DNA of 64,000 nucleotides. Source: Immundisolibacter cernigliae. Its GTDB lineage: Bacteria; Pseudomonadota; Gammaproteobacteria; Immundisolibacterales; Immundisolibacteraceae. Location of the stretch: the NCBI RefSeq assembly GCF_001697225.1, contig NZ_CP014671.1, positions 1,302,001 to 1,366,000 on the forward strand. The letters are read 5' to 3'. The position numbers and the translations under genes were made by a program. Within the stretch, counting starts at the first letter, position 1. The number at the start of each line of letters is the position of its first letter. Shown here one piece after another: positions 7,838 through 54,735 of this stretch. Below the pieces are notes generated by a model. The model had not been told where the DNA came from. It ran no database searches and was given only the letters and a program-made list of their open reading frames with translations.

Positions 7838-8053
7838 ATGAAGCGCCTTCGACAGGTGGGCCGAGATACCGACTATTTGCTGCCGCCGGCGGTGCGAGAC
7901 TGGCTGCCGGGGTCGCACTCGGCGCGCTACGTGGTGGATGTCAGCGACCAAGTGGACCTTTCGGAGCTTCCGGACGCGCACATGCCAATCGAAGCGCGCG
8001 CACAGGAGCGCTTCGCGAGAGAGCAAGCCGCATATCGGGCCTGGATGAATGCG
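7838..8053 (+). pseudogene. IS1182-family transposase remnant
   Basis: About 72 codons resemble two separated parts of an IS1182-type transposase. The N-terminus (DTDYLLPPAVRDWLPGSHSARYVVDVSDQVDLSEL) is fused to a mid-protein coiled stretch (ARAQERFAREQAAYRAW). The catalytic region is absent. After this point the frame runs into REP-like repeats and then into the toxin gene, so the long open frame is an accident. Bases 7659-7837 upstream show no gene that I can recognise. Confidence 0.65.
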
Positions 8054-8071
8054 GCATTCTCACGGCTGGGG

Positions 8072-8236
8072 CCGTGGGAGACCCGACCTCGGGCCGAATG
8101 CACGAGCTGGAAGATTCGCGGCCGGGGCGCCGCTCCCACAGGGGCGCCGCCCACCGGGGGCGCCCCTGTGGGAGGCCCGCCCTCGGGCCGATGGGTGGGT
8201 CCGGCATTCGGACCCCTCCCTCCCGCACCGCCCCGA
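8072..8236. repeat. Cluster of REP-like palindromes (types A and B)
   Basis: Contains at least two copies of a GC-rich palindromic unit A (core TCGGCCCGAGGGCGGGCCT, either strand: about 8072-8100 and 8165-8194) and one unit B (core GGCGCCCTCGCCGCGAAT, reverse strand: about 8108-8139). The same units recur near 10.4, 13.3 and 20.8 kb. They sit only in intergenic DNA and can fold into hairpins, as REP/BIME elements do. Confidence 0.75.
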
Positions 8237-8272
8237 ATTGCCGACGGTAGGCCATTGGCCTACTCTTCTCCG

Positions 8273-8554
8273 ATGATTTTCGAATGGGATGAAACCAAAA
8301 GCGAGGCGTGCTTTCACGAGCGCGGGTTCGACTTCGCCTATGCGGCACGGGCGTTTTTCGATCCAGATCGTCTCGTTCAGGCAGATGCCAGGCATAGCTA
8401 TGGCGAGGAGCGTTACCGGTTGATGGACAAGATTGAACAGCGCCTTTTTGTGGTGGTCCACACCCCGCGTCATGAGGCGATGCGCATCATCTCCGCGCGT
8501 AAAGCCAACCAACGAGAGCTCAGGCAATATGAAAACCGTACGCGTGAAGATTGA
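8273..8554 (+). CDS. brnT: BrnT-family ribonuclease toxin
   Basis: A 93-aa protein with the BrnT signature: MIFEWDETKSEACFHERGFDF at the start, a central AARAFFDPD, and the C-terminal VVVHTPRHEAMRIISARKANQRE. BrnT is a RelE-fold mRNA-cleaving toxin held by its antitoxin. The start at 8273 was chosen because the homology begins exactly there; a longer in-frame reading runs through repeats and a transposase remnant. Its 3' end overlaps the antitoxin start by 26 bp, indicating coupled translation. It is the first of three toxin-antitoxin modules in 2 kb. Confidence 0.86.
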   Translation: MIFEWDETKSEACFHERGFDFAYAARAFFDPDRLVQADARHSYGEERYRLMDKIEQRLFVVVHTPRHEAMRIISARKANQRELRQYENRTRED

Positions 8555-8864
8555 CCCTGCTGTCCCTGCCTCGCTGGCAAGAGGACGCATCGACCCTGCG
8601 CGCCTCGACGCCACCACCGAGAAGGATATTGCTGCGCAGCAAGCTGCCGATGAAGCCGAGGCCATGTTGGATGCGGCCCGGTTCGTGCGCCGGGTTCGCA
8701 AGCGTCTCGGCTTGAGCCAGGCGGAGTTTGCCGAGTGTGTCAATGTCCCGATCGACACGATCCGCGACTGGGAACAGGGCAAGCGCTACCCTACCGGCGC
8801 TGCGAAAGCGCTGCTCAAGGTGCTGGACAAGGCGCCTGAAGCGGCGCTGGCGGCACTTGGTTGA
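8529..8864 (+). CDS. XRE-type helix-turn-helix antitoxin paired with BrnT
   Basis: A 111-aa protein. The N-terminal half (MKTVRVKIDP onward) is probably the toxin-binding part. The C-terminal half is a clear HTH: VRKRLGLSQAEFAECVNVPIDTIRDWEQGKR. Most classical BrnA antitoxins carry a ribbon-helix-helix domain instead, so this is a variant pairing. It starts inside brnT (26-bp overlap) on the same strand. As with other type II systems, it should neutralise the toxin and repress the shared promoter; that promoter would lie in the repeat region upstream of 8273. Confidence 0.82.
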   Translation: MKTVRVKIDPAVPASLARGRIDPARLDATTEKDIAAQQAADEAEAMLDAARFVRRVRKRLGLSQAEFAECVNVPIDTIRDWEQGKRYPTGAAKALLKVLDKAPEAALAALG

Positions 8865-13613: not shown

Positions 13614-15482
13614 ATGAAACTCAGCAGAAATACCGTGCTGGTGCTGTTGCATGACGCGCTAGTGGCGGTGCTTGCGTGGCTGGGGGCGTATGCGATCCGC
13701 TTCAACCTGACGTTACCCACCGCCTACGTCGATGACGCGCTGTCCACTCTGTCCTGGGTGGTGCCGCTGCAGGTGCTGATTTTCTGGCGCTTCGGTTTGT
13801 ATCGGGGGCTGTGGCGGTTCGCGAGTCTGCCGGATCTGAAACGCATCCTGCGGGCGGTCGGACTGGCAGCGGTGCTGGTGCCGGCGATTCTGATCCTTGG
13901 CCGAATTGGAGCGCTGGTGCCGCGCTCGGTGCTGGTGCTAGACCCCTTGCTGCTTGTCACGCTGATGAGCGGCAGCCGGCTTTTGTACCGGTTATGGAAA
14001 GAGCACCGGCTGTCCCTGTCAGGCGGTGACGCAGTGCCCGTGCTGGTCGCAGGCGCCGGCACTGCCGCCGACATGTTGCTGCGCGAATTGCGTCGCGTCG
14101 GCGCATCCTGGCATGTGGTCGGTCTGCTTGACGACAATCCGAGCCTGCAAGGAAGGCACTTGCAGGGCGTGCCGGTGTTGGGCGCACTGGACGAGCTGGT
14201 CGCGTGGGCCGACAAGTTGGGCGTGCGCAACGTGATCCTGGCCCTACCAGCGGCGCCGCATGCCGTGCGCCGCCGGCTCGGCGAGGCGTGTGTCAATGCC
14301 GGGCTTGCCGTGCAGACGGTACCGGGACTGGACGATCTGATGCACGGCCGGGTGGCGGTGGGCGCGCTGCGCGCGCTCGAACTCGACGACTTGCTGGGCC
14401 GCGATCCGGTGCAACTGGACGATTCCGGGCTGGCCGCCTGGCTGGGTCCGCGCTGCGTGCTGGTGACCGGCGCCGGTGGATCCATCGGCTCTGAACTGGC
14501 GCGGCAGATCGCGCGCTTTCGGCCGCGGCGTCTGGTGTTGCTGGAACAGTCCGAGTACGCGCTGTACCAACTGCGCCAGGAATTCGAGGCGCGCTATGTC
14601 GGCATCGAGTTGGCCTGGGTGATCGGCGACGTCAAGGACGGCGTGCTGATGGAGCGGGTGTTGCAGCAACATCGTCCGGCGCTGGTGTTCCACGCCGCTG
14701 CCTACAAGCACGTGCCGCTGATGGAGGAAAACCCGCTCGAAGCGCTCAGGAACAACGTGCTGGGCACCTGGACCTTCGGCCGCGCCGCGGTGGCGGCGGG
14801 AGTGGAGAAATTCGTGCTGGTATCGACCGACAAGGCGGTCGAGCCGACTTCCGTGATGGGGGCGTCCAAGCGTCTGGCGGAATTGGTCGGGCAGTCGCTG
14901 CAGCGACCGGGCGGCACGCGCTTCGTGGCGGTGCGCTTCGGCAATGTGCTGGGGTCGTCCGGCAGCGTGGTGCCGCGCTTTCGGGCGCAGATCGAGTCCG
15001 GTGGCCCGATCACGGTGACCCACCCGGAGGTGACGCGTTACTTCATGTCCATTCCGGAGGCCGCGCAGTTGGTGCTGCAGGCGGGCCTGATGGGCGAAGG
15101 CGGCGAGATTTTTCTGCTCGACATGGGCGATCCGGTGAAGATCGTCGACCTGGCGCGGCTCATGCTGCGTCTGGCCGGGCGCAACGAGGCGGAAATCCCC
15201 ATCGTGTATACCGGCCTGCGGCCTGGCGAGAAGCTGTTCGAGGATCTGCACTCGCCGCGGGCGGGGGTGAGCGGCACGCCGCACCCGAAACTGTGGCGCG
15301 TTTCCGAGCCGACCCTGGACGGCGAGCAGGTGGCGCGTCTGCTGCTCGACCTGAAGGCCAGGGTGCAGGCCGGCGACGCGGCTGGCGCGCGCGACTGGGC
15401 CTTGGCGCTGGCGAACGGTTCGGCACGGACAGCGGCGGATCCGACTCCGCCGGCCTGGCGCGGGGTGTCTCCGGCGTCGTAA
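13614..15482 (+). CDS. wbpM: Membrane-anchored UDP-GlcNAc 4,6-dehydratase (WbpM/CapD-like)
   Basis: A 622-aa protein of normal WbpM length. Four N-terminal hydrophobic segments (residues 10-110) precede a first nucleotide-binding-like domain (VPVLVAGAGTAADMLLREL). The catalytic SDR domain has VTGAGGSIGSELARQI near residue 285, HAAAYKHVPLME, STDKAVEPTSVMGASKR near 403 (the family's Met-x-x-x-Lys version of YxxxK) and RPGEKLFEDL. It converts UDP-GlcNAc to UDP-4-keto-6-deoxy sugar, the source of QuiNAc or FucNAc, at the inner membrane. Together with the WbpV- and WbpL-like genes it gives the first sugar of the repeat. Confidence 0.94.
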   Translation: MKLSRNTVLVLLHDALVAVLAWLGAYAIRFNLTLPTAYVDDALSTLSWVVPLQVLIFWRFGLYRGLWRFASLPDLKRILRAVGLAAVLVPAILILGRIGALVPRSVLVLDPLLLVTLMSGSRLLYRLWKEHRLSLSGGDAVPVLVAGAGTAADMLLRELRRVGASWHVVGLLDDNPSLQGRHLQGVPVLGALDELVAWADKLGVRNVILALPAAPHAVRRRLGEACVNAGLAVQTVPGLDDLMHGRVAVGALRALELDDLLGRDPVQLDDSGLAAWLGPRCVLVTGAGGSIGSELARQIARFRPRRLVLLEQSEYALYQLRQEFEARYVGIELAWVIGDVKDGVLMERVLQQHRPALVFHAAAYKHVPLMEENPLEALRNNVLGTWTFGRAAVAAGVEKFVLVSTDKAVEPTSVMGASKRLAELVGQSLQRPGGTRFVAVRFGNVLGSSGSVVPRFRAQIESGGPITVTHPEVTRYFMSIPEAAQLVLQAGLMGEGGEIFLLDMGDPVKIVDLARLMLRLAGRNEAEIPIVYTGLRPGEKLFEDLHSPRAGVSGTPHPKLWRVSEPTLDGEQVARLLLDLKARVQAGDAAGARDWALALANGSARTAADPTPPAWRGVSPAS

Positions 15483-15630
15483 TGTCAGTGCATGGAGCCT
15501 GGGCGACAATGGCTTCAGGCCGGAGGTGTGAGCGATCACATCCCCGGATTGACCAAAGCCTGTCAGGTTGATCAGGCGTGGGCTTTACGATGTCGTCCTG
15601 TGTGCAACTGAAACCCGGAAATCAGTCTCC

Positions 15631-17055
15631 ATGATCATCCCCGTCATCCTGTCCGGCGGCGCCGGCACCCGCCTGTGGCCGCTGTCGCGCGAGCTGTACC
15701 CGAAGCAGTTCCTGCCGCTCACCGGCGAGCGCAGCCTGCTGCAGCAGACCGTGCTGCGCTTGCAGGGACTGCCGGACCTGGCGCCGCCGCTGGTGGTGTG
15801 CAACGAGGAGCATCGCTTCCTGGTGGCCGAGCAGTTGCGCGCGGTGGGCGTGGCGGGCGGCGAGATTCTGCTGGAGCCGGCCGGGCGCAATACCGCGCCG
15901 GCAGTCGCACTGGCGGCGCTGCGGGTAAAGGCGCGCGGCGACGACGACGCGCTGCTGCTGGTGTTGCCGTCGGATCATGTGATTGCCGATGCCGCGGCCT
16001 TGCAGCGCGCGGTGAGCGCCGGCGTGGCGGCAGCGCGCGAGGGTGGGCTGGTGACCTTCGGCGTGTTGCCGACGCGGCCGGAGACCGGTTTTGGTTATAT
16101 CCGCACCGGCGCCGTGCCGGGCGGCGGGCTGTCGGCGCAGCCGGTATTGGCCTTTGTCGAAAAGCCGGATGCCGAGCGCGCCGCGGCCTATGTGGCCAGC
16201 GGCGAGTACCTGTGGAACGGCGGCATGTTCCTGTTCGGCGCCGACGCCTATCTGGCCGAGCTGGAACGCCTCGCGCCGGCCATCCTGGCGGCCTGTAGTG
16301 CAGCCAGCGAGAACGCGCGGGTGGATATGGATTTCGTGCGCGTGCAGCGCGAGCCGTTCCTGGCCACGCCGAGCGACTCCATCGACTATGCGGTCATGGA
16401 ACGCACCGACCGCGCCATGGTGGTGCCGCTGGATGCCGGCTGGAGCGACGTCGGTTCCTGGGACGCGTTGCTAGACGTGCAACCGGCAGACGCGCACGGC
16501 AATGTCATTTCCGGCGACGTGATGATCGAGGACGTGTCGGGCAGCCTGATCCGCAGTGAAGGCCGGCTGGTGGCGGCGCTGGGGGTGAGCAATCACATCA
16601 TCGTCGAGACGGCCGACGCGGTGCTGGTGGCCGACCGCGCCCGTGCCCAGGACGTCAAGCGCCTGGTCGAGCGGCTCAAGGCCGAGCGGCGCGACGAGCC
16701 GCTGGTGCACCGGCAGGTGTTTCGGCCCTGGGGTTCGTACGAGGGCCTGGTGCAGACCGAGCGTTTTCAGGTCAAGCGCATCATCGTCAAACCCGGCGCC
16801 AGCCTGTCGCTGCAGATGCACCACCACCGCGCCGAGCACTGGGTGGTGGTCAAGGGCACCGCGCGCGTGACCTGCGGTGACGATGTGCGCTTGCTGACCG
16901 AGGATCAGTCCACGTACATCCCGCTGGGCACTGCCCACCGGTTGGAGAATCCGGGCCGCATCGACCTGGAGATCATCGAGGTGCAATCCGGCAGCTACCT
17001 GGGCGAGGATGACATCGTCCGCTTCGAGGATCACTACGGACGCAGCGGCGCCTGA
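15631..17055 (+). CDS. manC: Mannose-1-phosphate guanylyltransferase / mannose-6-phosphate isomerase
   Basis: A 474-aa bifunctional type II enzyme. The N-terminal GDP-mannose pyrophosphorylase has VILSGGAGTRLWPLSREL (around residues 5-22) with PKQFLPL, VEKPDAERA and WNGGMFLF. The C-terminal cupin isomerase has RPWGSYEGLVQ, HHHRAEHWVVVKGTA and IPLGTAHRLENPG. It makes GDP-mannose for mannose-, rhamnose- or fucose-type sugars. The start MIIPVILSG was preferred because homology begins there. The stop overlaps the next gene's start (TGATG). No phosphomannomutase or GDP-mannose dehydratase is visible here, so it must draw on enzymes encoded elsewhere. Confidence 0.94.
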   Translation: MIIPVILSGGAGTRLWPLSRELYPKQFLPLTGERSLLQQTVLRLQGLPDLAPPLVVCNEEHRFLVAEQLRAVGVAGGEILLEPAGRNTAPAVALAALRVKARGDDDALLLVLPSDHVIADAAALQRAVSAGVAAAREGGLVTFGVLPTRPETGFGYIRTGAVPGGGLSAQPVLAFVEKPDAERAAAYVASGEYLWNGGMFLFGADAYLAELERLAPAILAACSAASENARVDMDFVRVQREPFLATPSDSIDYAVMERTDRAMVVPLDAGWSDVGSWDALLDVQPADAHGNVISGDVMIEDVSGSLIRSEGRLVAALGVSNHIIVETADAVLVADRARAQDVKRLVERLKAERRDEPLVHRQVFRPWGSYEGLVQTERFQVKRIIVKPGASLSLQMHHHRAEHWVVVKGTARVTCGDDVRLLTEDQSTYIPLGTAHRLENPGRIDLEIIEVQSGSYLGEDDIVRFEDHYGRSGA

Positions 17056-18173
17056 TGCCGGCGGTCGAGCAATCGCTGCGGGTGCTGCACCTGTGCCCGG
17101 ATACCCGTTATCTGACCGAGCTGTTCGCGCTGTATCGGGAGGCGCTGGACCAGCCGCCGTTCCAGAGCACGGTCGTGTTCCTGCGCGGCAAACCGGACGC
17201 CGCGCTGGCGCAGCACATGGGCGAACGGGTGCAGTTTCTGAACCTGTCCCGCAACGCCCTGGAAGGCCTGCGCCTGCCGGCCCTGTGGCGACTGTGGCGG
17301 TCGTGCCGGGGGCAGCGTTTCGATCTGGTGGTGGCACATCGCTTCAAGGCGCTCACGCTCGGACTGGCCTTGTACCGCTTGCGCGTGGCGCGGCACGTAT
17401 TCGGTGTGGTGCACGAGATGGGGCAGTTCGACGGCCATCGCCGACGCGTGATCGAGCGGGCGCGCAAGGCGCCGCTGACGCTGATCGGCGTCTCGGATGC
17501 GGTGGTGGCCGATCTTGCGGCGCGTTTTCCGAGTTTTCCGACGGCGCGCCTGAAAGCCTTGCCCAACACCGTGGTCGATCACGCCTTGCTGACGCGCGGC
17601 CAGGCCTGCGCGGTGCTCCGGCTGGCACCGGATCGCTTCTGGTTCGGGGCCATCGGCCGGCTGGTGTCGGTCAAGGGCTACGACCTGCTGCTGCGCGCCT
17701 TCGCGCCACTGGCACATGAAATTCCCCGGCTGGGCCTGGCCCTGGTCGGAACGGGACGCGAGGAAGCGGCATTGCGTGCACTCAGCCACGACCTGGGCAT
17801 TGAAGAACAGGTCGCCTTCTGCGGTTGGCGGGAGGATGTACGCAGCCTGCTCGGTGCCTTCGAGGTGTGTGTGTTTCCCTCCCGGGAGGAAGGCTTCGGA
17901 CTGGCGATCGCCGAGGCCATGGTGGCTGAGCGCCCGGTGATTGCATCCGCGGTCGGCGGCGTGCCCGAGTTGCTGGGCGACGAGGCCTTGCTGGTGCCGC
18001 CCGATGAACCGGCGGCGCTGACGGCCGCGCTGCGTCGGCTGTACGACGACCCCGCACTGCGTGAGGCGATGGGGGCTGCGCTGCGCGCGCGCTGGCAGGC
18101 GCAGTTCTCGCCGACACAGTTTGCGAGGCGCTTGCAGGCATTTGCGCGTGAGGCGGCCGGAGCGGCCAGGTGA
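17055..18173 (+). CDS. Family 4 glycosyltransferase
   Basis: A 372-aa GT-B protein. The N-terminal acceptor domain has VLHLCPDTRYLTELFALYRE and VVAHRFKALTLGLALY. The C-terminal donor domain shows IGRLVSVKGYDLLLRAF, VAFCGWREDV and the E-x7-E motif in FPSREEGFGLAIAEAMVAERPVI. It is expected to retain anomeric configuration and use an NDP-sugar, plausibly the GDP-mannose made by its neighbour manC. Overlap with manC (1 bp) and with the ligase-like gene (GTGA) places it in one operon. The precise linkage is unknown. Confidence 0.9.
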   Translation: MPAVEQSLRVLHLCPDTRYLTELFALYREALDQPPFQSTVVFLRGKPDAALAQHMGERVQFLNLSRNALEGLRLPALWRLWRSCRGQRFDLVVAHRFKALTLGLALYRLRVARHVFGVVHEMGQFDGHRRRVIERARKAPLTLIGVSDAVVADLAARFPSFPTARLKALPNTVVDHALLTRGQACAVLRLAPDRFWFGAIGRLVSVKGYDLLLRAFAPLAHEIPRLGLALVGTGREEAALRALSHDLGIEEQVAFCGWREDVRSLLGAFEVCVFPSREEGFGLAIAEAMVAERPVIASAVGGVPELLGDEALLVPPDEPAALTAALRRLYDDPALREAMGAALRARWQAQFSPTQFARRLQAFAREAAGAAR

Positions 18174-48196: not shown

Positions 48197-49141
48197 TCAC
48201 ATGAAATCGACGCTGCCGAGGAAGACCTGGCCACGGCGCCGGCAGCAGGAGTACGGCCGCCACAAGGCCCAGGCGTAGCCGCCCTGCTGGGCCTGCACGC
48301 GGGTGCGGCCGTGCGGGAAGACCACGCAACTGTTCGAGAGCGTGGGCGTCAGCTCCTGCCACTTGCCCGTCGATGCGTCGGTCTCCATCAGCGCGCCGGC
48401 CGGCCAGTAGCCGTCGCGGGCGTTGGCCAGCAGGGGCTGGTACACGTGAATCTGGTTGCGGCGCGTCACGATGTCGCCCGCGCGCTGCGCGACCACGGCG
48501 CCGCTCTTGTGGTCGTCGGTCTGGTGCAGGAAGCCACCGCGGGGATACACGTTGCCCCAGAGGTTCAGGCCGGTGCGCGTACCGATTTCGCGCCGGCCGG
48601 GGATGAGCGCTTCGGGGTAGAACGCCTCCGGAATGTTGTAGCGCCAGCCGATCGTGTCGAGCGTGCTCAGCAGATACGGCATGAAGGCCGTGCCAGCGCC
48701 TTCGCAGGTGTAGCCGGCGGCGCTGGCGAACCGGCTGAACACCATCCCGGCCGGATGGCCGATGACATCGGCGTTCTTGAACCTGGCGAGGTTGTTCTCG
48801 TTGTCGTGATTGGTCGTGCCGTCACCGCCCGCCTTGGCGGTCGCGTTCGGCATGCTCATTGCCCTGACTTCCAGCCACGGGTTCTCGCCGGTGTTCGAGT
48901 AGCTCGACACCACCGCATCGGGGACGTAGTGGCGCACCTTGACGGAGGTGCGAACCGAGCAGCCGAAGGGCGTGCAGTACAGCCAGTGGCAGATGCCGAC
49001 CACGCGGTATTCAAGGCAGTCGGGGGACAGCGCCGACGACACGATGGTGGCGGTGTCCAGGGCGAACGTCGACGTGGCCGCGCCGAGCAGCAGCGAGGCG
49101 GCGGTGGCGCGCAGGCGCCGGGATGCCCGTAGGAGGTTCAC
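48197..49141 (-). CDS. ICE conjugation protein, TIGR03756-like (TraU-type)
   Basis: A 314-aa exported protein with Cys-rich periplasmic sequence: PDCLEYRVVGICHWLYCTPFGC, YTCEGAGTAFMPYLLSTLD, NSCVVFPHGRTR and WRPYSCCRRRG. These resemble TraU, the disulfide-rich protein of F-type DNA transfer. GTG start overlaps the TIGR03757-like stop (GTGA). Many disulfides imply dependence on a DsbA-type helper; one is encoded farther along in the same operon (54736-55479). Confidence 0.86.
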   Translation of the reverse strand: MNLLRASRRLRATAASLLLGAATSTFALDTATIVSSALSPDCLEYRVVGICHWLYCTPFGCSVRTSVKVRHYVPDAVVSSYSNTGENPWLEVRAMSMPNATAKAGGDGTTNHDNENNLARFKNADVIGHPAGMVFSRFASAAGYTCEGAGTAFMPYLLSTLDTIGWRYNIPEAFYPEALIPGRREIGTRTGLNLWGNVYPRGGFLHQTDDHKSGAVVAQRAGDIVTRRNQIHVYQPLLANARDGYWPAGALMETDASTGKWQELTPTLSNSCVVFPHGRTRVQAQQGGYAWALWRPYSCCRRRGQVFLGSVDFM

Positions 49142-49581
49142 GGCTGCCTGGTCCGGTAGGCGTCGATGCGCGCGGCGGCGCGGTGCACGTCGGGCTCGCC
49201 GTAGACCACGTAGCGTCGATCGACCACCACGGCGGGAATCTTGGCGATGCCCAGCCCCCAGGCGTCTGCGACACCCTGATAGGCATGGCCGATGCGGCGC
49301 TGCAGGGCCTCGCCGCCGTCATGCAACCGCTGCTGCACTACGGCTGCGGCCTGTTGCGGGTCGGCCGGCAGGTGTGCGGCGAGTTCGACCTCAATGCGCG
49401 CGGCTTGGTCCAGCTCGATGACCCGCACGCCGGCCGGGGCCTGCACCGGATGACGGCTGTCGGTGACGACGAGCACGTCGGCTGCTGCAGTCTGGGTGAA
49501 CATGAACAGCACTGCCCACAGTCCGGGCGCAATGCGGATGGTCGGCAGCCGGGGCGAAGCCTTGAAGACGGGGACCGGCAT
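49138..49581 (-). CDS. ICE conjugation protein, TIGR03757-like
   Basis: A 147-aa exported protein: signal region IRIAPGLWAVLFMFTQTAAA, then VLVVTDSRHPVQAPAGVRVIELDQAARIE and AWGLGIAKIPAVVVDRRYVVYGEPDVHRA. The pattern DSRHP...IPAVVVD matches the small TIGR03757 family (thioredoxin-like, related to TrbC/TraW C-termini). It comes directly after the three-gene cassette, where the operon is interrupted by 143 bp. Confidence 0.86.
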   Translation of the reverse strand: MPVPVFKASPRLPTIRIAPGLWAVLFMFTQTAAADVLVVTDSRHPVQAPAGVRVIELDQAARIEVELAAHLPADPQQAAAVVQQRLHDGGEALQRRIGHAYQGVADAWGLGIAKIPAVVVDRRYVVYGEPDVHRAAARIDAYRTRQP

Positions 49582-49724: not shown

Positions 49725-50393
49725 TCAGGTGCGGGACGCTGGGGTGCCAGCGAACCCAAGAAACGCATGATGTAAGCGAATCGGCATCGACGGCTTGGAG
49801 CGTGCATGTAGGCTCTGCCAAGTCCCGTCACTGATGTCGCTCGGGGCGAGGCGATCTACCGAGCGCGAAACTCTTCTCAGGTAAGCGTTGACGCCATCCG
49901 CGGATTCCGAAGGCGAGCCGGAGAGAACATAGCCCACCATGAAGCCGATTGCGTGGTTCTCTCCGTACTTCTCCCGGACGAATCGATCCATGCCTTCGAC
50001 CACGTACTCGCGGCACAGGTGGGTGTCCGACCCGGCAATGCGCTTGCATTCGATGACTGCATGCGGGTCATGCTCCTGCGTGCGGAGGAAGACTTCGATC
50101 AACATCAGAGGAATATCGGTGCGCCCGTCCGGCAACACCACGCTTGCTTTGGATCGCGACTCAGTTCCCGGCAGCACGATCAGCTTCCATGGGGAGTTTC
50201 TTAGCACTCCACGCATTCCATCGCGCAGGCGCTCCGTCATGAGCACCTCGCCAGCGTTGGCATTCACGTCCTCGGCTGCGCATGCTCGCTGCCAACCTGC
50301 GGCCAGTGTCAGCAGAATGACCGCCACGACCTCGGGCTGAATTTCAATGAACTCTCTGCCCAATGCAGGAGGTGTCTCATAGGGGATCCTCAA
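49725..50393 (-). CDS. PD-(D/E)XK nuclease-like protein, third gene of cassette
   Basis: A 222-aa protein, not matched to a named family. It shows a restriction-like active-site pattern: Glu54 in MTERLRDGM, Asp93 in LPDGRTDIPLML, then Glu115-Cys-Lys117 in PHAVIECKRIAG, followed by the helix YVVEGMDRFVREKYG and GFMVGYVLSG. These spacings fit a PD-(D/E)XK fold (D-x21-E-x-K). The start is TTG overlapping the methyltransferase stop; Met52 is an alternative. A hydrophobic stretch near residues 22-34 could mimic a signal peptide, yet the nuclease reading favours a cytoplasmic protein. By context it is the cutting partner of the methyltransferase upstream. Confidence 0.7.
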   Translation of the reverse strand: MRIPYETPPALGREFIEIQPEVVAVILLTLAAGWQRACAAEDVNANAGEVLMTERLRDGMRGVLRNSPWKLIVLPGTESRSKASVVLPDGRTDIPLMLIEVFLRTQEHDPHAVIECKRIAGSDTHLCREYVVEGMDRFVREKYGENHAIGFMVGYVLSGSPSESADGVNAYLRRVSRSVDRLAPSDISDGTWQSLHARSKPSMPIRLHHAFLGFAGTPASRT

Positions 50394-53353
50394 ACATTTC
50401 CCCCTGAAAAGCTCTCCGCGACCACTGCATCGGCATCTTCCAGTGCCGCTATGCCCATCCAGTAGCGCCGCGCTGATGGCTTGATAATCACGACTTCGTT
50501 GCGTCCGTGTACACGCAATTCCCGCTCTGCACTGAGCGCGGTCGCGATCTTGACTTTCAGGCGCCTGCCGATACGTACTAGTACGTCGCCCAATTCGCCT
50601 TGTGGCGCCACGACGCTCACACTCGCATTGCCCGGTCCCTCTTCCAAGACAAAGCGCACGACACGCAAGGCCGAACTGCTTGGCAAGTCAAGCACTTCGG
50701 CGCGCATGTGCCGCTTATTGCGAACGGAAAGCCAACCCTCGATAACGGACAGGAACGTCCTGGCATACGCTGCAATGTCGGTACGGCTATCCGAGGGTTC
50801 CACTGACGACTCGCGGCCGGTTTCCCATTGCCACCCGGCGCGTAGAAGCCCGTCTCGAATGACAACTCGGTTGGCATCGTTCAGTTCGTACAGATCGAAG
50901 ACAGCTTCGTCTAGATCAGCCCATCCTCTCGCGCCGGCGCCGTGGGCACGCAAGTTCTTCTCAATCTGCAGCAGGCGCTGGCCAGCCTCAGATTTCACTG
51001 CGCTCACGAAGTCAGGCACAGGCAGGAAGCTGAGGTCGCGAGCCAGCAGCTTCCTCTTGTAGATTCCAAACTCTGAAGCGGTCAGATAGAAGAACCATGT
51101 CGCAAAAGCAGAACTCAACACGGTAGCAAGCAAATGTGCCGTCCGCGTGTGCTCTCTCGGAAGGGACACTGCGAAGTATGAGTTCGTGAAAACGAGATCC
51201 CGCTCGGAGACGGCCGCCAAGACGCGCGGACTCCCCAGAAGCATTTCCTTCACGATGAGAAGCGGGGCTTGATATATCTCCCGTGATCTTGGCCATTGTG
51301 CCTTCGATTGGCTGAAGGTCGGCAGAGCATCGGGAATGTTGAAGTGCTGCATGTCTTTGACTTGCAGTACCTCCAGCCCTCTTAGCGGGCGAGCATCGCG
51401 CGTCTGGTTTTCTGAGGCCCCTCGAATCAATCCAACCTGGAAGGTAGTGTCGAGTAGTGAGAGTTGCTCGCCCAGACTTCTGTGGTCCAACGTCAACTCA
51501 TCCAACAATAGAAGGTCACGGCGTCGGCCAATGGCTGCTGCCTTAAGCTTCAACGGCTGTTCTTGGATTTCGCCGAGCGTCAAAGTGATGACGTCACTCG
51601 GCGCCACCTCGAACGAATGAGTCCTTGCACCGCTGGGCGTCCACGGGATCTGAACGACCGTGACCTGATCCGTTCGCTGCGTCGGCCGATGACGGGCAAA
51701 GAGAACCACTGCAGGCATGGCTGCAGTCGCGAAGAGCCAACTGCACAAATTGGACAGATTGACCAAGGTGATCGGAGCCAGGGCTCGCATCACATGCTGA
51801 GCTGCTGCCATGCCGGTGCCGCTGCGGCTGAAGAACGGCATCGCGCTAAGAATGATGCCGAAGCGAGTCTTCTCATGTGAGAACTCGGCCGCACGCAACA
51901 CGAAATCCAGGCCTTCACCACGCGGTTGCGCGGGTACGCCCGCAACCCTGGTCTTGCGCCGCGCTTCGGTTCCTGTCTGCCCTTTAAAGCTCCAAGGGGG
52001 ATTGCCTACGATCAGGTCGAACTGCTTCAGTCCCGCCGGCGTCGCCAGCACGGCCTTGCCATTTCCGTCACGTTCGACCGTACGAGCGTCACCGACGAGC
52101 AATGTCCTGCCGATCAATGGCTGGAACTTCAGGGACTGCGGTGGCTGCGGGTCAGGGTCCAGCTCAAGCGCAGCCAGGTATAGGCTGAACGCAGCGACGC
52201 GAATCGCGGCTTCGCTGATGTCCACGCCATAGACTTGCCCATAGAGTGTCGAGCGTATCACCTCCCTCGTGGGCGGCTGACCTTGCGATCGAAGATGAAC
52301 CAAGCGCCGCAACGCTTCGACCAGGAAGACACCAGAGCCGCACGTCAAATCCAGCACCGACTCCCGTCCAGATAGGCCATCCATGACCTCATCAAGGATC
52401 AGCGAGACGACGGACAGCCGCGTGTAATGCACGCCGTTTCGCAACGCTTCTGTGCGCTTTCCGTTTGTCCGCGGCTCAGCGTGCGCGAACTGCTCATAGA
52501 TCGAGCTGATAAGTTCGACCGGAATTACGTCGAACTGGTAGGGGAAGAAGCTGAGCTGCCCGCTTTCAGGATCGGCAGCCTCCAGGAACTCCGCAACCCG
52601 CGTCAAGTGGTGTGCGGCTGGTGTCGTTTTCACCGACGAAGGCGGAAACATATCGCCGTTGAAGGTCTGGGCCAGCCATGTGAACAGCTTGCTGGTCGCT
52701 GGCCGGTCGCGCAGTATCGCCGGCAACGCCGTGTGGCCGCATACCCGCTTCAACCGCGTCGCACTGACGATCTCGCGGTCAATCAGGTACTGCGTGAAGA
52801 TCACGCGCCCGATCAAGGCCTGCGCCGCGTCGCGCGCGAGATTGCCTGCGACCAAATCGCGTTCGAGACATCCAAGGTCGGACAGAAGCTTCTGATCGAC
52901 GCTGGTCTTGCGATCGATGGCCGGCACCTGGACCCAGAACTGGCCCGTCTCGATCGCCAGCCGGCCGGCGAACTCGTCCAGTTCATGAAGCGAAGCTTCG
53001 ATGTTCTCGAAACGCCGAAGCAAATGTTTCTGGGCATCGCCTTCTTTCATGGGCGTGCCGAAACCGTTGTACAGGTCGATACGCTGCGGCGAGATCACCC
53101 ACAGCAACGGCGCGAACCCCTCGTTCCAGACCTCTCGTCGCCACTGGCTGACCAGATCGTCTGCAGGCGCGCTTTGCTCAAACTTGAAGTAGACGGTCAA
53201 CGACGACGCGCTGCGCCACAATGCGTCCGGAACAAAAACGCGGCCGTGGCGCGAGGACTGCGCCTCAGCCCCCAATCGAAGGCCTGGCGCGGGTCGCCCG
53301 TCCGGCAGGTAGCCGGTTGCTGCGAGCACATGTTCCAGCGTGGCTGTGTTCAC
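50390..53353 (-). CDS. N6-adenine DNA methyltransferase-like protein with nuclease-like N-terminus
   Basis: A 987-aa protein, GTG start overlapping the HTH gene stop. The methyltransferase core lies around residues 330-560: SAM loop VLDLTCGSGVFLVEALRRL (near 331), YGVDISEAAIRVAAFSL, and catalytic FDLIVGNPPWSFKG (NPPW near 450). It is a large gamma-type enzyme as in type IIG/Eco57I or PglX proteins. The first 110 residues (TVYFKFEQ, VSQWRREVWNEGFAPLLWVIS, IDLYNGFG) resemble the nuclease-like leader of such enzymes, without obvious catalytic residues. The C-terminal 400 residues are probably a target-recognition domain. Its partner genes overlap by 4 bp on both sides. Confidence 0.82.
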   Translation of the reverse strand: MNTATLEHVLAATGYLPDGRPAPGLRLGAEAQSSRHGRVFVPDALWRSASSLTVYFKFEQSAPADDLVSQWRREVWNEGFAPLLWVISPQRIDLYNGFGTPMKEGDAQKHLLRRFENIEASLHELDEFAGRLAIETGQFWVQVPAIDRKTSVDQKLLSDLGCLERDLVAGNLARDAAQALIGRVIFTQYLIDREIVSATRLKRVCGHTALPAILRDRPATSKLFTWLAQTFNGDMFPPSSVKTTPAAHHLTRVAEFLEAADPESGQLSFFPYQFDVIPVELISSIYEQFAHAEPRTNGKRTEALRNGVHYTRLSVVSLILDEVMDGLSGRESVLDLTCGSGVFLVEALRRLVHLRSQGQPPTREVIRSTLYGQVYGVDISEAAIRVAAFSLYLAALELDPDPQPPQSLKFQPLIGRTLLVGDARTVERDGNGKAVLATPAGLKQFDLIVGNPPWSFKGQTGTEARRKTRVAGVPAQPRGEGLDFVLRAAEFSHEKTRFGIILSAMPFFSRSGTGMAAAQHVMRALAPITLVNLSNLCSWLFATAAMPAVVLFARHRPTQRTDQVTVVQIPWTPSGARTHSFEVAPSDVITLTLGEIQEQPLKLKAAAIGRRRDLLLLDELTLDHRSLGEQLSLLDTTFQVGLIRGASENQTRDARPLRGLEVLQVKDMQHFNIPDALPTFSQSKAQWPRSREIYQAPLLIVKEMLLGSPRVLAAVSERDLVFTNSYFAVSLPREHTRTAHLLATVLSSAFATWFFYLTASEFGIYKRKLLARDLSFLPVPDFVSAVKSEAGQRLLQIEKNLRAHGAGARGWADLDEAVFDLYELNDANRVVIRDGLLRAGWQWETGRESSVEPSDSRTDIAAYARTFLSVIEGWLSVRNKRHMRAEVLDLPSSSALRVVRFVLEEGPGNASVSVVAPQGELGDVLVRIGRRLKVKIATALSAERELRVHGRNEVVIIKPSARRYWMGIAALEDADAVVAESFSGGNV

Positions 53354-53826
53354 GCCCTGCTCCGGATAGCTTCCGGCGGAAACGGCAACGCTGCCTGGTT
53401 CGGCGCCGGGATGATCGGCAGCATGTGCTGCTGAAGCCGCGTGATCAACGGATCGAGCGGGATCACGAGAGTCGGTTGCGTCGGCGCCGGCGCAACCCCC
53501 TCGGGGCCGATATCGCACAGGGTCGCCGAAGTGGGCGTCACGAACGCCACGGACCCATTCAGCACCAACGCGCTACTGGTGCCCAGCAACCTAAAGAGCG
53601 TGTCCACGCCGACGCTGACGGTGGCGATGTGCACGCCCAATGAGCTGACCAGCTCATTGGTAACGGCCAAGCCAAGGAGATCGGCGAAGGTGAACCGGGC
53701 AGCCTTCCCGGTCTTGGACGCCAAGTAAGGCACGGTCTTGCGCCAATGCCGCACCGTCTCGACGGACACGCCGGTTAGCGTGCGCATCTGATCCTGAGTG
53801 TACTGGATGGCGGTGACGGCAGACAT
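53350..53826 (-). CDS. MerR-like helix-turn-helix regulator, first gene of cassette
   Basis: A 158-aa protein. Residues 8-55 form a MerR-like winged helix (YTQDQMRTLTGVSVETVRHWRKTVPYL, RFTFADLLGLAV). The remainder is hydrophobic-to-mixed, ends in a Pro-rich tail, and has no metal-binding Cys array. It may regulate the cassette or serve as a phase-specific repressor. Its GTGA overlap with the methyltransferase indicates one transcript. A sigma70-like promoter is visible 30 bp upstream. Confidence 0.8.
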   Translation of the reverse strand: MSAVTAIQYTQDQMRTLTGVSVETVRHWRKTVPYLASKTGKAARFTFADLLGLAVTNELVSSLGVHIATVSVGVDTLFRLLGTSSALVLNGSVAFVTPTSATLCDIGPEGVAPAPTQPTLVIPLDPLITRLQQHMLPIIPAPNQAALPFPPEAIRSRA

Positions 53827-53856
53827 TCGCGTTGCTTACAACTAGAAAATGCGTAC

Positions 53857-53885
53857 ATTCTGCCACGTAAAGGTGTGCTTCTCAA
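53857..53885 (-). promoter_or_regulatory. Candidate promoter of the HTH-methyltransferase-nuclease cassette
   Basis: On the minus strand TTGAGA (53880-53885) and CAGAAT (53857-53862) are separated by 17 bp, a fair sigma70 pair that points to the ATG at 53826. The region is AT-richer than the ICE genes on either side, consistent with an independent transcription unit. Unproven. Confidence 0.4.
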
Positions 53886-54045
53886 CCGGTAAAGGCCGGC
53901 TCAGCCGCCTATCCCGCAAGCTTTCAAGCTTCCGAAGATCGTGACCATCAGAATGCGTCGCGAACGTGGCAACCGGAACGTTCCATGGCAGTTCTAGTGG
54001 AGGCAAGAGGAACAGGCGCCCCGGAAGGGACGCCTGCGGTGCGGA

Positions 54046-54540
54046 CTACAACAAGCCGGCTTCGGCGAACGAGTACGGGCGGCCCTTGCCGACGATGAAG
54101 TGATCCAGCACCCGGACATCGACGGTGGCCAGGGCGCTCTTCAGCCGCTCGGTGATCGCACGATCAGCGGCCGATGGTTCGGTGGTCCCCGAGGGGTGCT
54201 GATGCGCCAGGATCAGCGCCGAAGCGTTGAGCGCCAGCGCACGCTGGACCACCACCCTCGGATACACCGAAGTCTGGTCGACCGTGCCCTTGAACAGCGG
54301 CTCAAAGGCGAGCACGTGGTGCTGGTTGTCGAGAAACACGACGGCGAAAATTTCGTTCGGCTCCGCGACCAGTTTCAGGCGCAGGTAATCGCGCACGGCG
54401 GCGGGACCGCCCAGCGCCGGACCGGCCCTGAACACGCGATTCTCCAGCAGGGTGATGGCCTGCTGGATGATCCAGTCTTCGTGCTGGGCGGCGATCAGGG
54501 TGAGCGACTCCGGGCGGGAATCGGCGATGACTAGAGACAT
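54046..54540 (-). CDS. radC: RadC-family JAB-domain protein
   Basis: A 164-aa protein with the RadC signature: [38 protein letters not shown], the metal-binding motif [19 protein letters not shown] (HxH-x-S...D) and [10 protein letters not shown]. Length is that of the short ICE-borne copies, lacking the N-terminal HhH domain of chromosomal RadC. RadC relatives are almost always present in GI-type elements; function is unclear. It marks the left edge of the cassette insertion site. The start [10 protein letters not shown] is preferred over an upstream Met. Confidence 0.9.
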
Positions 54541-54735
54541 GGCGAACCTCCAAGGGATGAGATCGGAGGGCGCCTGCCCCCGGGAGGGCAAACCCTCCTG
54601 GGGACGATGGGAATGGAACAGGCGACGAGCGGGCATCCACCACCGCGGATGCGGTGGCCGTTCGCGTCAGGGATGCGATGCGAACGGGTTTCGATCAGCG
54701 CGGACGAGCCGCGCCGCAGCCTTGAAGATCGATGG

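Follow-up and report, generated by a model that had tools for sequence, protein, structure and literature searches.

A mobile three-gene cassette of proteobacterial integrative elements and plasmids: a probable restriction-modification system whose methyltransferase would direct a separate nuclease

Type IIG restriction enzymes (the Eco57I/MmeI class; PADLOC PDLC03623 and PDLC03603) combine a gamma-type methyltransferase, its own target-recognition region and a fused D...(E/Q)xK nuclease domain in a single chain. One such restriction-modification (R-M) system, I55 orf37, has been validated on Pseudomonas genomic islands, where it protects against phage (PMC12595487). Controller-type type II systems gather an autoregulatory helix-turn-helix (HTH) gene, a methyltransferase and a small endonuclease in one operon, while the nucleases of type I and type III systems depend for their specificity on the modification or specificity part. 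A different R-M regulator, RptR, is tied to type I systems (PMC12255303). Here we discuss a locus that resembles all of these in part. It lies in a stretch of 64,000 nucleotides of the Immundisolibacter cernigliae genome (contig NZ_CP014671.1, positions 1,302,001 to 1,366,000), which we call the window and to which all coordinates refer unless a locus is named. Three genes, encoding an HTH regulator, an adenine methyltransferase of 987 amino acids (aa) and a nuclease-like protein of 222 aa, form one operon in a genomic island (GI)-type integrative and conjugative element (ICE) between radC and a TIGR03757 gene (Table 1). The unusual point of this cassette is that the recognition region of the methyltransferase is swapped without a change of the nuclease. 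We consider it probable that the trio is a mobile, motor-less R-M cassette in three polypeptides, namely a regulator, a modification-plus-specificity protein and a restriction protein, in which the methyltransferase would direct the nuclease.

How does the trio compare with the known systems? Its gamma-type methyltransferase has its own recognition region in the same chain and aligns with type IIG enzymes over most of its length. However, the nuclease is encoded by a separate gene, and the N-terminus of the methyltransferase has no D...E-x-K in the sequences examined. Since the catalytic motif is thus found in another protein, a defining feature of type IIG is absent. I55 orf37 is likewise an island-borne IIG-type methyltransferase gene, but is described as a single-gene system. 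Controller-type systems share the arrangement of the operon with the trio, whose HTH, in contrast, is MerR-like and not a C-protein, whose methyltransferase is about 1000 aa long and whose recognition region swaps while the nuclease remains unchanged. The apparent source of nuclease specificity recalls type I and III systems, yet neither a helicase/translocase gene nor a separate HsdS accompanies the trio, as only the three genes are shared across the loci outside ICEs. An HTH gene followed by an N6 methyltransferase is also found in MADS, and weak PADLOC matches to mad1 (1e-3) and mad2 (7e-15) exist, but the NCBIfam MAD2 score is 13.8 bits against a cut-off of 720, and no mad3 or later genes are conserved with the trio. 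Similarly, the methyltransferase core is shared with BREX PglX, but the score is 33.8 bits against a cut-off of 400 and no pglZ, brxC or other BREX genes are present. The original prediction, made from the letters of the sequence, called the layout possibly undescribed, in part because the nuclease is so small. Literature searches, with thin coverage of subscription journals and preprints, returned no named system with this layout. The size of the nuclease, on the other hand, is no sign of novelty, because many type II endonucleases are equally small. The trio appears to be a member of a widespread family without a name.

The case for a nuclease directed by the methyltransferase comes from natural alleles. 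When the window is compared with the related locus L011, the methyltransferases are 95% identical in their N-terminal and 93% in their C-terminal part, the recognition regions are only 67% identical, and the nucleases are 98% identical. In nucleotides, identity falls to 57-89% in a block of about 1 kb (50900-51886) after the NPPW motif, versus about 86-100% elsewhere in the gene. The L011 block looks imported, because it is nearest to those of L012 and L013 (84%). L001 is 92% identical to the window in the recognition region (protein) and 89% in the nuclease, whose gene drops to 78-87% in its middle part (49910-50206). Recognition region and nuclease recombine independently, with one exchange in L011 and a separate one in L001. 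A swap of the recognition region likely changes the DNA specificity. Since a nuclease with a site of its own, combined with a swapped recognition region, would leave the host unprotected, the methyltransferase is the most likely source of the nuclease's specificity. It could be argued instead that this is an ordinary type II operon of controller, methyltransferase and endonuclease, in which the 222-aa endonuclease reads its own target independently. In favour of this reading, the order of the genes and the autoregulation of the HTH recall controller-type systems, a length of 222 aa is normal for such an endonuclease, and the weak best structural matches of the protein include PspGI and BglI. 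We nevertheless consider it rather unlikely: a nuclease that is 98% identical goes with two recognition regions only 67% identical, region and nuclease recombine independently, distant lineages keep the nuclease family along with its methyltransferase, and this methyltransferase has roughly double the usual length.

That the third protein contains Asp93 and E115-x-K117 and is a PD-(D/E)XK nuclease had been proposed from the sequence of the window, and both parts of the proposal fit what was found afterwards. Across 31 aligned sequences, from close and distant members alike, seven residues never vary (D93, E115, K117, Y130, F138, M152 and H209), and two more, E49 and T53, are each found in 30. 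Profiles of the close and the distant set match each other in hhalign (99.65%, E=4e-25). The AlphaFold2 (AF2) model of the protein has a mean predicted local distance difference test score (pLDDT) of 81.7. It consists of a helix (residues 49-64), three strands (71-73, 93-98 and 112-120), a second helix (124-139) and a last strand (149-158), which is the alpha-beta-beta-beta-alpha-beta order of the PD-(D/E)XK core, with D93 opening strand 2 and E115-x-K117 in strand 3. No usable match to the sequence was obtained in searches of Pfam, PADLOC, NCBIfam, PHROGs or PDB; Pfam PDDEXK_9 matches two members of the family weakly (E=0.21). We regard it as very likely that the 222-aa protein is a PD-(D/E)XK nuclease.

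The methyltransferase matches Pfam N6_Mtase (4e-14), Eco57I (3e-7) and MmeI_Mtase (3e-7), in agreement with its earlier assignment to the gamma class on the strength of an NPPW motif. It is the only member of the trio with a PADLOC type IIG call (REase_MTase_IIG, 7e-46, aligned over most of its length). That best match, and one relative annotated as an endonuclease-methyltransferase fusion, might suggest that the methyltransferase is by itself a complete type IIG enzyme in one chain, with the 222-aa protein as an accessory or second effector. But in the alignment the N-terminal part of the window's family has D43...Y55-F-K57 in place of D...E-x-K, and the distant methyltransferases examined lack even these positions and have no D...E-x-K at the N-terminus. 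By its N-terminal sequence the chain contains no fused D...(E/Q)xK nuclease domain. With the catalytic residues strictly kept in a separate protein, a self-sufficient IIG enzyme seems highly improbable.

Several points weigh against a cassette in which the methyltransferase directs the nuclease. The exchanged recognition regions are still 67% identical, so that a new motif, though likely, is unproven. The methyltransferase adds no structural support, its AF2 model being poor (pLDDT 53). When the nuclease model was compared with PDB and viral models in Foldseek, no match reached E<=0.001 (best the endonuclease PspGI, E=0.36; the weak best matches also include BglI), and support for the fold therefore comes from its topology and the invariant residues. 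Finally, in L101 a relative of the methyltransferase and an HTH with the clamp-type motif described below are followed by an unrelated gene (7857-8639) in place of the nuclease.

A genome-wide scan with the methyltransferase found 41 other loci with a relative at 53-95% identity. As to whether the three genes co-occur in other genomes, a check that the original prediction had proposed, the HTH is present in 38 of these loci and the nuclease in 40. Fourteen occupy the same ICE slot, in Stutzerimonas, Thauera, Rhodanobacter, Dyella and others; the remainder are elsewhere, and outside ICEs the trio is the only gene set common to nearly all, no other gene family being shared. All three genes are under purifying selection (ratio of nonsynonymous to synonymous substitution rates, dN/dS, 0.06-0.18). 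Because of this and the conservation across Proteobacteria, the trio is not a chance set of open reading frames (ORFs); it is a conserved, co-mobile unit. In the window, the genes overlap by exactly 4 bp at both junctions (GTGA, 53350-53353; TTGA, 50390-50393), as had been predicted for three genes on one strand. The flanking genes are also those expected, and the ICE is recognizable by strong matches to TIGR03757, TIGR03756, TIGR03755, TIGR03744 (TraC) and TIGR03752. In many related ICEs, the trio is missing and TIGR03757 follows soon after the TraC gene, which is why we regard the trio as cargo in a slot where plain GI-type elements normally continue directly.

More distant relatives, at about 25-33% identity, are found on many plasmids of Alpha-, Beta- and Gammaproteobacteria, where a small DNA-binding gene again comes first, followed by the genes for a methyltransferase of some 1000 aa and a nuclease-like protein of 214-249 aa. 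The last two are usually annotated as 'N-6 DNA methylase' and 'hypothetical protein'. One plasmid subfamily (L092, L094-L096, L098, L099) has a 62-70-aa ribbon-helix-helix (RHH)-like gene, then the methyltransferase, and a nuclease-like protein of 238 aa. The nuclease was absent from the phage records searched; one viral contig has a relative at its edge. The methyltransferase gene had no nucleotide-level match in the Escherichia coli genomes searched.

The trio of L036 is followed directly by Gabija genes (13800-17653; GajA 7.5e-240, GajB 1.3e-220). Homologous gajA/gajB pairs also stand beside the trio in L031, L032 and L040, making four Gabija-adjacent loci, all alphaproteobacterial. These neighbours, the strict co-occurrence, the predicted fold and the invariance of D93, E115 and K117 agree with the restriction-like, self-contained cassette that had been proposed. 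The Gabija neighbours would also suit a nuclease that acts otherwise, for example as an effector of abortive infection or one dependent on methylation, the methyltransferase marking self and non-self; the clamp-type motif of the regulator, suggestive of replication coupling, could be added in its favour. Nothing in the sequence indicates a methyl-reading or toxin domain, however, and we hold this to be the least probable of the explanations.

Upstream of the HTH gene, a palindromic operator-like site GTTG-N4-CAAC occupies the same position in 14 of 15 divergent representatives, where 0.115 would be expected, and its copy at 53831-53842, GTTGTAAGCAAC, is the only one in the window. In L033 and L040 both arms are altered together, to GTCG...CGAC. 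A second site, at -60, has one mismatch in about a dozen other loci. A conserved palindromic operator at the HTH start implies that the gene is autoregulated, probably by autorepression. By sequence, then, the HTH has an operator-like site at its own promoter, as controller proteins do, and its binding there is predicted. The original prediction gave the operon a promoter of its own. A promoter-like element is present, but a scan for promoters performs at chance (1 found, 1.0 expected); the element gains support because the conserved operator adjoins it. The prediction of a MerR-like HTH agrees with a Pfam match (Table 1). At the other end of the operon, the nuclease begins with TTG inside the TTGA overlap at 38 of 40 junctions, while the start of the methyltransferase at the equivalent overlap varies between ATG, GTG and TTG. 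Such a fixed TTG start would be expected if weak translation of the nuclease were selected for.

The C-terminal tail of the HTH carries a second conserved feature. The bacterial beta-clamp consensus is QL(S/D)LF (PMC9690074), and the tail, presumed flexible, has QxxLPF in all close homologues (39 of 39). At the equivalent place in the operon, distant HTHs have QLDLF (L083, L085), QFDLF (L089, L091), QLPLF (L100, L101) or QLTLF (L074), and further ones QRQLQF, QGHLQF, QRELPL or QRELAL. In 697,386 aa of six-frame ORFs, Q[LF][DST]LF occurs 3 times and QxxLPF 39 times, which is about the number of HTH copies there. A shuffle test gave 8 of 8 against 0.15, with a pattern picked after inspection, and so the family-wide conservation is the better argument. 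We hypothesize that the tail docks on the DnaN sliding clamp; other partners are possible. To judge from its conserved operator and clamp-type docking motif, the HTH is more than a plain regulator.

Other plasmid subfamilies (L070:3443-3733, L093:2661-2951, L073:3401-3691) have a 96-aa XRE-like regulator with a clamp-like ending, QADLDL, QATLEL or QGVLEL. At least one XRE-like regulator, that of L069, has no QxxLxL ending, and we claim nothing for these regulators. Plasmid subfamilies with a small RHH-like gene upstream show no clamp motif in it.

If the trio is an R-M cassette directed by its methyltransferase, it might work as follows. The MerR-like protein would bind the GTTG-N4-CAAC sites around its own promoter and limit the operon. 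The 987-aa enzyme, by its family an adenine-N6 methyltransferase, would methylate one motif on host DNA, and the 222-aa protein would cut the same motif when unmethylated. The recognition swap suggests that the nuclease has little sequence specificity itself and is guided by the methyltransferase. Translational coupling and the weak TTG start may hold the nuclease below the level of the methyltransferase, and a new host would then be methylated before cutting. A regulator tail on the DnaN clamp would tie regulation or recruitment to replication. One can go further and imagine a replication-coupled R-M system, in which the clamp tethers a DNA-binding protein, in which methylation, nuclease recruitment or derepression follows the forks and in which the motor-less nuclease depends wholly on the methyltransferase; this we offer as a tentative possibility.

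At present the nuclease family, on proteobacterial plasmids and ICEs, is unmatched in Pfam, PADLOC, NCBIfam and PHROGs, and the methyltransferase is catalogued as a type IIG enzyme that stands alone. Recognizing the operon would correct the annotation and add a nuclease family. It would also offer a compact R-M architecture in which the exchange of one region could alter specificity. If an R-M regulator does dock on the clamp with its tail, restriction would be linked to replication; our literature searches found no published example of such a link.

Table 1. Positions of the genes, motifs and predicted control sites of the locus in the window
Feature	Position	Strand	Remarks
HTH regulator, 158 aa	53350..53826	minus	ATG start; Pfam MerR_1 E=6e-6; homologues aligned
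N6-adenine methyltransferase with own target-recognition region (M+S), 987 aa	50390..53353	minus	GTG start
Predicted PD-(D/E)XK-type nuclease subunit, 222 aa	49725..50393	minus	TTG start inside TTGA overlap
NPPW catalytic motif, residues 451-454	51992..52003	minus	invariant in methyltransferase alignment
Target-recognition region, about residues 490-818	50900..51886	minus	exchanged as a block between natural alleles
Asp93, start of core strand 2	50115..50117	minus	invariant, 31/31
Glu115-Cys116-Lys117, core strand 3	50043..50051	minus	E and K invariant, 31/31
QAALPF, residues 144-149, beta-clamp-binding-like hexapeptide	53380..53397	minus	HTH C-terminal tail
Palindromic operator GTTGTAAGCAAC at -16 of HTH start codon	53831..53842	minus	predicted; same place in 14/15 representatives
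Second, degenerate operator-like site at -60, over -35 box	53875..53886	minus	two mismatches in window
Promoter-like TTGAGA-17-CAGAAT, between the two operator sites	53857..53885	minus	AGAAT/ATAAT kept in related loci
RadC-family flanking gene of ICE	54046..54546	minus	TIGR00608 1.5e-40; upstream of trio
TIGR03757 flanking ICE gene	49138..49581	minus	match 2.1e-42

Two other genes of the window, both outside the trio, may be mentioned. An ORF of 265 aa at 62835-63632 matches MADS1/excisionase HTH models in its C-terminal part; it stays below the MAD1 cut-off (71 of 80 bits), and its excisionase domain is above its own cut-off. At 13614-15482 there is a 622-aa nucleotide-sugar dehydratase-like gene (PseB and EPS sugar transferase models), probably part of a polysaccharide locus apart from the ICE genes.

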